A stretch of DNA of 64,000 nucleotides, from positions 2,247,501-2,311,500 of the forward strand of contig NZ_AP028679.1 of the NCBI RefSeq assembly GCF_037076455.1. The letters are read 5' to 3'. The notes beneath the pieces were generated by a model, which made no database searches, was not told where the DNA came from, and saw only the letters and a program-made list of their open reading frames with translations. This stretch comes from Desulfoferula mesophila. Its GTDB lineage: Bacteria > Desulfobacterota > Desulfarculia > Desulfarculales > Desulfarculaceae. The stretch's first letter is position 1. Every line of letters starts with the position of its first letter. Of the stretch, positions 1,782 to 2,102 are shown in pieces. The position numbers and the translations under genes are program-made.

Positions 1782-2102
1782 ATGCAAATACTGGTGATCC
1801 TCTCCAGTCAGGACCCGGAAATCAAATGGAACGCGGTCAGGCTTGGCAACTTCCTTTTGAACCAGAACGAGGAAGTCACCATTTTCTTGAACGGAGGGGC
1901 CGCGGACCTTTATCAGGGCGACAGCCCTACCTTCCCCATCCGGGAGGAAGCCAAGATTTTCGCCCTGAGCGAGGGGGTGCTGGCCGCTTGAGGCAAGTGC
2001 ATGGGCATCCACGGGGTGGATGAAGATCAATTCATAAAGCTCTCCAACATGAAGTTTCTCTACGAACAAATTAAATCAGCCGACAAAATTATCAGCTATT
2101 GA
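1782..2102 (+). CDS. DsrE-like selenoprotein (in-frame UGA read as selenocysteine)
   Basis: Read through one internal TGA (1989-1991), the frame encodes 106 residues that resemble DsrE-family sulfur-handling proteins along their whole length. The N-terminus has the family pattern ILVILSSQDPE..WNA.RL.NF, and the C-terminus has MKFLYEQIKSADKIISY. The TGA falls at residue 70 in the motif U-G-K-C, where cysteine homologues carry C-G-T-C, so selenocysteine would replace the active-site Cys. A hairpin at the expected bacterial SECIS distance follows the TGA. Start ATG 1782 has GTGAGGA just upstream. Stopping at TGA would lose the redox motif and a third of the fold. The likely role is redox or sulfur/selenium transfer; the partner is unknown. 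Sec insertion also needs selA, selB, selC and selD, which are not in this window. Confidence 0.88.
1989..2022 (+). promoter_or_regulatory. bacterial SECIS element following UGA codon
   Basis: A perfect 7-bp stem (CATCCAC 2006-2012 / GTGGATG 2016-2022) with a GGG loop begins 14 nt after the TGA, placing the apical loop about 21 nt downstream. This matches the known spacing and G-containing loop of bacterial SECIS elements bound by SelB. The hairpin lies inside the coding sequence (residues 76-81), as is normal in bacteria. Confidence 0.75.

Follow-up and report, generated by a model that had tools for sequence, protein, structure and literature searches.

A predicted stand-alone DsrE-like selenoprotein of Desulfoferula mesophila: a conserved chalcogen position and a variable second cysteine

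DsrE-Like Selenoproteins and Related Systems

Selenoproteins resembling DsrE, carrying a UxxC motif and assigned to PF02635, were described from the Sargasso Sea in 2005 (PMC1088965), followed by a DsrE-like selenoprotein in Desulfovibrio vulgaris in 2006 (PMC1794560) and by the DsrE 1 and DsrE 2 selenoproteins in GOS in 2008 (PMC2398784). They are still listed in a 2022 review (PMC9312934), and a review from 2026 counts them among the bioinformatically identified families, with functions largely uncharacterised (PMC13188914). The initial annotation of the locus treated here had referred to such proteins from environmental and deltaproteobacterial surveys, and the three earlier reports bear this out (PMC1088965, PMC1794560, PMC2398784). 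Since the family was already published between 2005 and 2008, the novelty of the present gene is lower. Among related cysteine proteins, Cys78 of DsrE and Cys78 of TusD are the persulfide-carrying residues from which sulfur is passed on (PMC3397948), and YedF (TIGR03527) has a DsrE-like domain with a CGxC motif and a genomic link to selenium (PMC5322559).

The gene described below lies in the window, a stretch of 64,000 nucleotides of Desulfoferula mesophila (NZ_AP028679.1, positions 2,247,501 to 2,311,500). Going by their description, the published DsrE-like selenoproteins agree with its product in PF02635 membership, Sec as the first residue of UxxC, a bacterial SECIS and a deltaproteobacterial host; the difference is that two distant Sec-DsrE paralogues occur in this genome. 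Members lacking the second cysteine are the one feature that adds to the published accounts, as far as these describe the family. Regarding YedF, its C-terminal DsrE-like domain resembles the window protein; however, it also has a N-terminal SirA-like domain, whereas the window protein is a single 106-residue domain. The TIGR03527 model gave no match to the window protein and only a weak, sub-threshold one to its paralogue.

The Gene and Its Reading Frame

The DsrE-like selenoprotein gene occupies positions 1782–2102 of the forward strand and consists of 106 codons, counting one TGA as Sec, plus the terminal stop, as indicated by the frame, the Pfam match, homology across the readthrough and purifying selection. 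It starts with an ATG at 1782, its coding part extends over 1782–2099 and it finishes with an ordinary TGA stop at 2100–2102. The putative Sec codon, TGA at 1989–1991, corresponds to residue 70 in the motif U-G-K-C. At the aligned position, the Sec relatives examined likewise have TGA, and the natural Cys homologues have a Cys codon. The second residue of the motif, Cys73, is encoded by TGC at 1998–2000 and is lost in a related sub-group. Upstream, a probable ribosome-binding site, judged from its sequence, GAGGA, is placed at 1771–1775, 6 nt before the ATG, and weak promoter-like hexamers (TGGAAA-17-TATCAT) are found at 1716–1744, of which 0.4 would be expected by chance. The Pfam DsrE match (PF02635) spans the in-frame TGA, covering residues 2–105 with 28.7 bits against a gathering cut-off of 22.7. 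An annotation taking every TGA as a stop would shorten such genes.

Selenocysteine Machinery and SECIS Hairpin

The genome is a complete, single contig of 4.48 Mb, and the whole Sec apparatus whose absence would speak against a Sec reading was found in it: a tRNA-Sec gene (selC) with the anticodon TCA, SelA (612 bits), a full-length SelB (393 bits) and SelD (377 bits), the last itself having an in-frame TGA in the context G-U-A-A-K. When selA was searched in 80 genomes with a DsrE family member, it was present in 79, including all the TGA-bearing ones, and the sole exception, G288, carries the Cys form.

Just downstream of the TGA, a candidate SECIS hairpin on the forward strand (2006–2022) is formed by the stem strands CATCCAC (2006–2012) and GTGGATG (2016–2022) enclosing a GGG loop (2013–2015), exactly the seven-bp stem and loop at the correct distance that had been described earlier; it is recognised by covariation and constant spacing. 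Taken from the window sequence alone, this stem is weak and would lack significance, being strong only by comparison. In a 71-nt fold it is not the minimum structure; when the codons of the same peptide are replaced by synonymous ones, about 20% of the recoded sequences have a stem of this length or longer, and about 5% fold at least as stably. Across 22 relatives, 98.7% of the cells pair, with two-sided changes at five of the seven pairs, and the covariation score of 0.358 was reached by none of 500 shuffles, slid structures scoring 0.03–0.08. In the window gene the distance from the TGA to the start of the loop is 21 nt, and most of the Sec members, in either Sec clade, have their apical loop at this spacing; the loop length is 3 in the window's clade and often 6 in that of the paralogue. 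Cys members are mostly without the stem, with a mean of 3.3 pairs versus 7.0 in Sec members. L042, a Cys member inside the window's clade, keeps a degenerate stem, which would fit a fairly recent change from Sec to Cys.

Conservation of the TGA and Family Tree

In a survey of the phylum, covering 395 genomes, a family member was found in 83. At E <= 1e-30 there were 73 matches; a hand count of the table put those with an in-frame TGA at about 61, and the 12 sense-codon members at this threshold, each inspected, all have Cys at the aligned site. The expectation that Cys homologues would show C-G-x-C where the window gene has U-G-K-C was borne out. Six named relatives, with identities of 68–87%, all share the TGA at this codon. 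The closest relatives with names are MAGs that bear the labels Deltaproteobacteria, Desulfarculaceae and Desulfovibrionales, the Desulfovibrionales orthologues being about 70% identical to the window protein. The differences by codon position indicate purifying selection upstream as well as downstream of the TGA, and dN/dS (NG86), where computable, is well under 0.3 on both sides.

The gene is also found in damaged form. In a same-genus relative, G196 (L052/L086), the gene is a decayed, truncated remnant, in which the Sec codon is replaced by CGA (Arg) and the SECIS-like stem is intact; loss of the gene is under way in a close relative. As only this remnant is left in G196, and as G053 and G395 have no match, the gene is dispensable. 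The G257 copy has a frameshift. In the same family, the Sec-DsrE gene of G118 (L038) has a TAG, likewise in frame, at the conserved Trp16; pyrrolysine was considered for this codon and rejected, and the TAG is probably decay or an error, because that genome has no PylS above the cut-off.

A second TGA-containing DsrE gene is present in the Desulfoferula mesophila genome at G000:C1:245000-245308 on the reverse strand (L010 and L069). It encodes a U-G-V-C motif, its product is 32% identical to the window protein, and it has a SECIS-like hairpin of its own with a 6-nt loop.

In the family tree there are two well-separated Sec clades, the window gene being placed in one and its own paralogue L010 in the other. 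With the Sec/Cys site masked, the tree needs three Sec/Cys changes, and a single Sec clade is rejected (p-AU 0.017). Sec has probably been gained or lost more than once, as read from a tree of only 105 columns. A further feature of the alignment concerns the second cysteine, as 11 of 58 members have Sec without it, all in the window's wider clade: the U-G-K-L relatives L045, L047, L048, L049 and L109, the U-G-K-S relatives L041, L092 and L116, and L044, L046 and L107, which have no Cys at all besides the Sec. The U-G-K-L and U-G-K-S sub-groups conserve Sec, and the SECIS is kept in nearly all of them, and every member of the window's own sub-group keeps Cys73. The chalcogen, Sec or Cys, is conserved at the site in every intact member, and the second Cys is not. 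Since the latter is lost in a related sub-group, the conserved element is the single chalcogen.

Decoding of the In-Frame TGA

It is very probable, going by the comparative sequence data, that the window gene encodes a stand-alone selenoprotein of the DsrE/YchN fold in which the TGA at 1989–1991 is Sec, inserted under the direction of the SECIS just downstream and placed where C-G-x-C homologues have their first Cys. The initial annotation had proposed a DsrE-family selenoprotein, and the DsrE match across the TGA, the Sec machinery, the conserved TGA and the covarying SECIS all agree with it. Some points weigh against it: the stem is unexceptional in the window sequence by itself, some relatives do without an intact gene, and beyond the genus no neighbour is conserved. 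A truncated pseudogene, where a Cys codon (TGC or TGT) would have become TGA by an ordinary nonsense mutation or through a sequencing error, could draw on the decayed copies of relatives (the truncated G196 remnant with CGA, the G257 frameshift and the G118 TAG at Trp16); however, the TGA is common to dozens of independently assembled genomes across genera, and the genome has the machinery to decode it as Sec. When truncation was examined directly, homologues were found to keep the region downstream of the TGA under purifying selection, which, together with the covarying SECIS, reduces the chance of a pseudogene to a negligible level. The decoding of the TGA as another residue, such as Trp, by a change of code or by leaky readthrough, is scarcely less improbable, as nothing beyond the open frame speaks for it, whereas homologues show Cys and never Trp at this codon, the same gene ends at a TGA used as a stop, and a tRNA-Sec with anticodon TCA and a SECIS are present. 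With this codon read as Sec, the DsrE-like selenoproteins, whose functions are uncharacterised, gain a fully supported member.

Predicted Fold and Possible Mode of Action

The window protein has, in its predicted model, the DsrE/YchN fold. AlphaFold2 with the family alignment gave a pLDDT of 98, and the model matched YchN (Z 16.3), a DsrE/DsrF-like protein of Sulfolobus (S. solfataricus) (16.0), TusD (14.5) and DsrE (14.3), unrelated folds scoring at most 7. In this model, Sec70 is placed at the end of a strand (66–70), where a helix (71–76) begins. A phmmer search of the PDB with the single window protein returned chance matches only, the family profile being needed; with the profile, E. coli YchN (1JX7) was the only significant match (E 1.3e-06), over the full length, the CxxC of YchN falling on the Sec motif. 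YchN, the best match by fold, differs in being 11 residues longer, in having Cys rather than Sec and in sharing only 21% identity; a literature search for YchN together with DsrE found no paper. DsrE of DsrEFH and TusD of TusBCD likewise share the predicted fold, but their identity to the window protein is 13–15%, and its gene is without adjoining DsrF/DsrH/TusBC or DsrC genes.

Based on these likenesses, a mode of action can be proposed. Sec70 would act as a nucleophile, accepting sulfane sulfur as Se-S(-) and passing it to an acceptor thiol, where selenium might allow faster attack and release, or confer protection from over-oxidation. Cys73, in those members that have it, would probably resolve the intermediate as a selenenylsulfide, being optional and not essential to the family. 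By analogy, there is about an even chance that Sec70 works like the Cys of DsrE and TusD, as a sulfane-sulfur carrier. The terms “catalytic” for the Sec and “sulfur relay” for the protein, both used in the initial annotation, may hold to the extent that position and homology to DsrE/TusD suggest them.

The published classification is different, as the Sec would be a redox centre of the thiol-disulfide type, forming a U-x-x-C selenenylsulfide, and not a sulfur carrier. The UxxC motif is that of thioredoxin-like selenoproteins, the DsrE-like UxxC proteins are filed among thiol-dependent redox selenoproteins in the Sargasso Sea report (PMC1088965, its Table 3), and the window's own sub-group retains Cys73 throughout. 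Nevertheless, Sec is conserved in the U-G-K-L and U-G-K-S proteins that have no partner Cys, three members having no other Cys whatsoever; studied members of the family use a single Cys as the persulfide carrier (PMC3397948); and the predicted fold is that of DsrE, not of thioredoxin. The redox centre keeps a substantial likelihood, somewhat below even. As the chalcogen alone is conserved, the sulfane-sulfur carrier would be favoured over an obligatory U-x-x-C switch. A broader proposal, also by analogy and more tentative, is that the Sec-DsrE proteins are selenium-based carriers of sulfane sulfur, or of selenide, in which Sec alone would form the Se-S(-) analogue of a persulfide. If so, the Sec-only sub-group (U-G-K-L, with some members lacking any Cys) would be a selenoprotein class relaying sulfur rather than performing thiol-disulfide redox reactions. 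The conserved chalcogen with a variable second Cys is a testable lead on function.

Genomic Surroundings

The neighbours of the window gene are a S58 peptidase, a small lipoprotein-like ORF, a phosphoribosyltransferase and a helicase-like ORF. Partner genes for DsrF/DsrH (TusC/TusB) or DsrC were not seen beside it, and none is conserved in relatives. Synteny extends over the genus only, and beyond it there is no conserved neighbour that would point to a donor or an acceptor of sulfur.

The Sec-DsrE gene lies about 3–4 kb from selA in two congeneric species (G213:C55 and G391:C1); this is not so in G277, a third species of their genus. Among distant relatives, L079 (Sec form) and L080 (Cys form) have an ArsR-type regulator and a small winged-helix protein followed by the DsrE gene, and in L082 an ArsR-like ORF alone precedes it; a chalcogen- or metal-responsive operon is possible for these three, which are too few cases to build on. 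The lipoprotein-like ORF upstream of the selenoprotein gene, at 1281–1676 on the forward strand, encodes 131 aa without a Pfam or NCBIfam match, and it is kept beside the gene in the same-genus relatives L025, L026 and L027.
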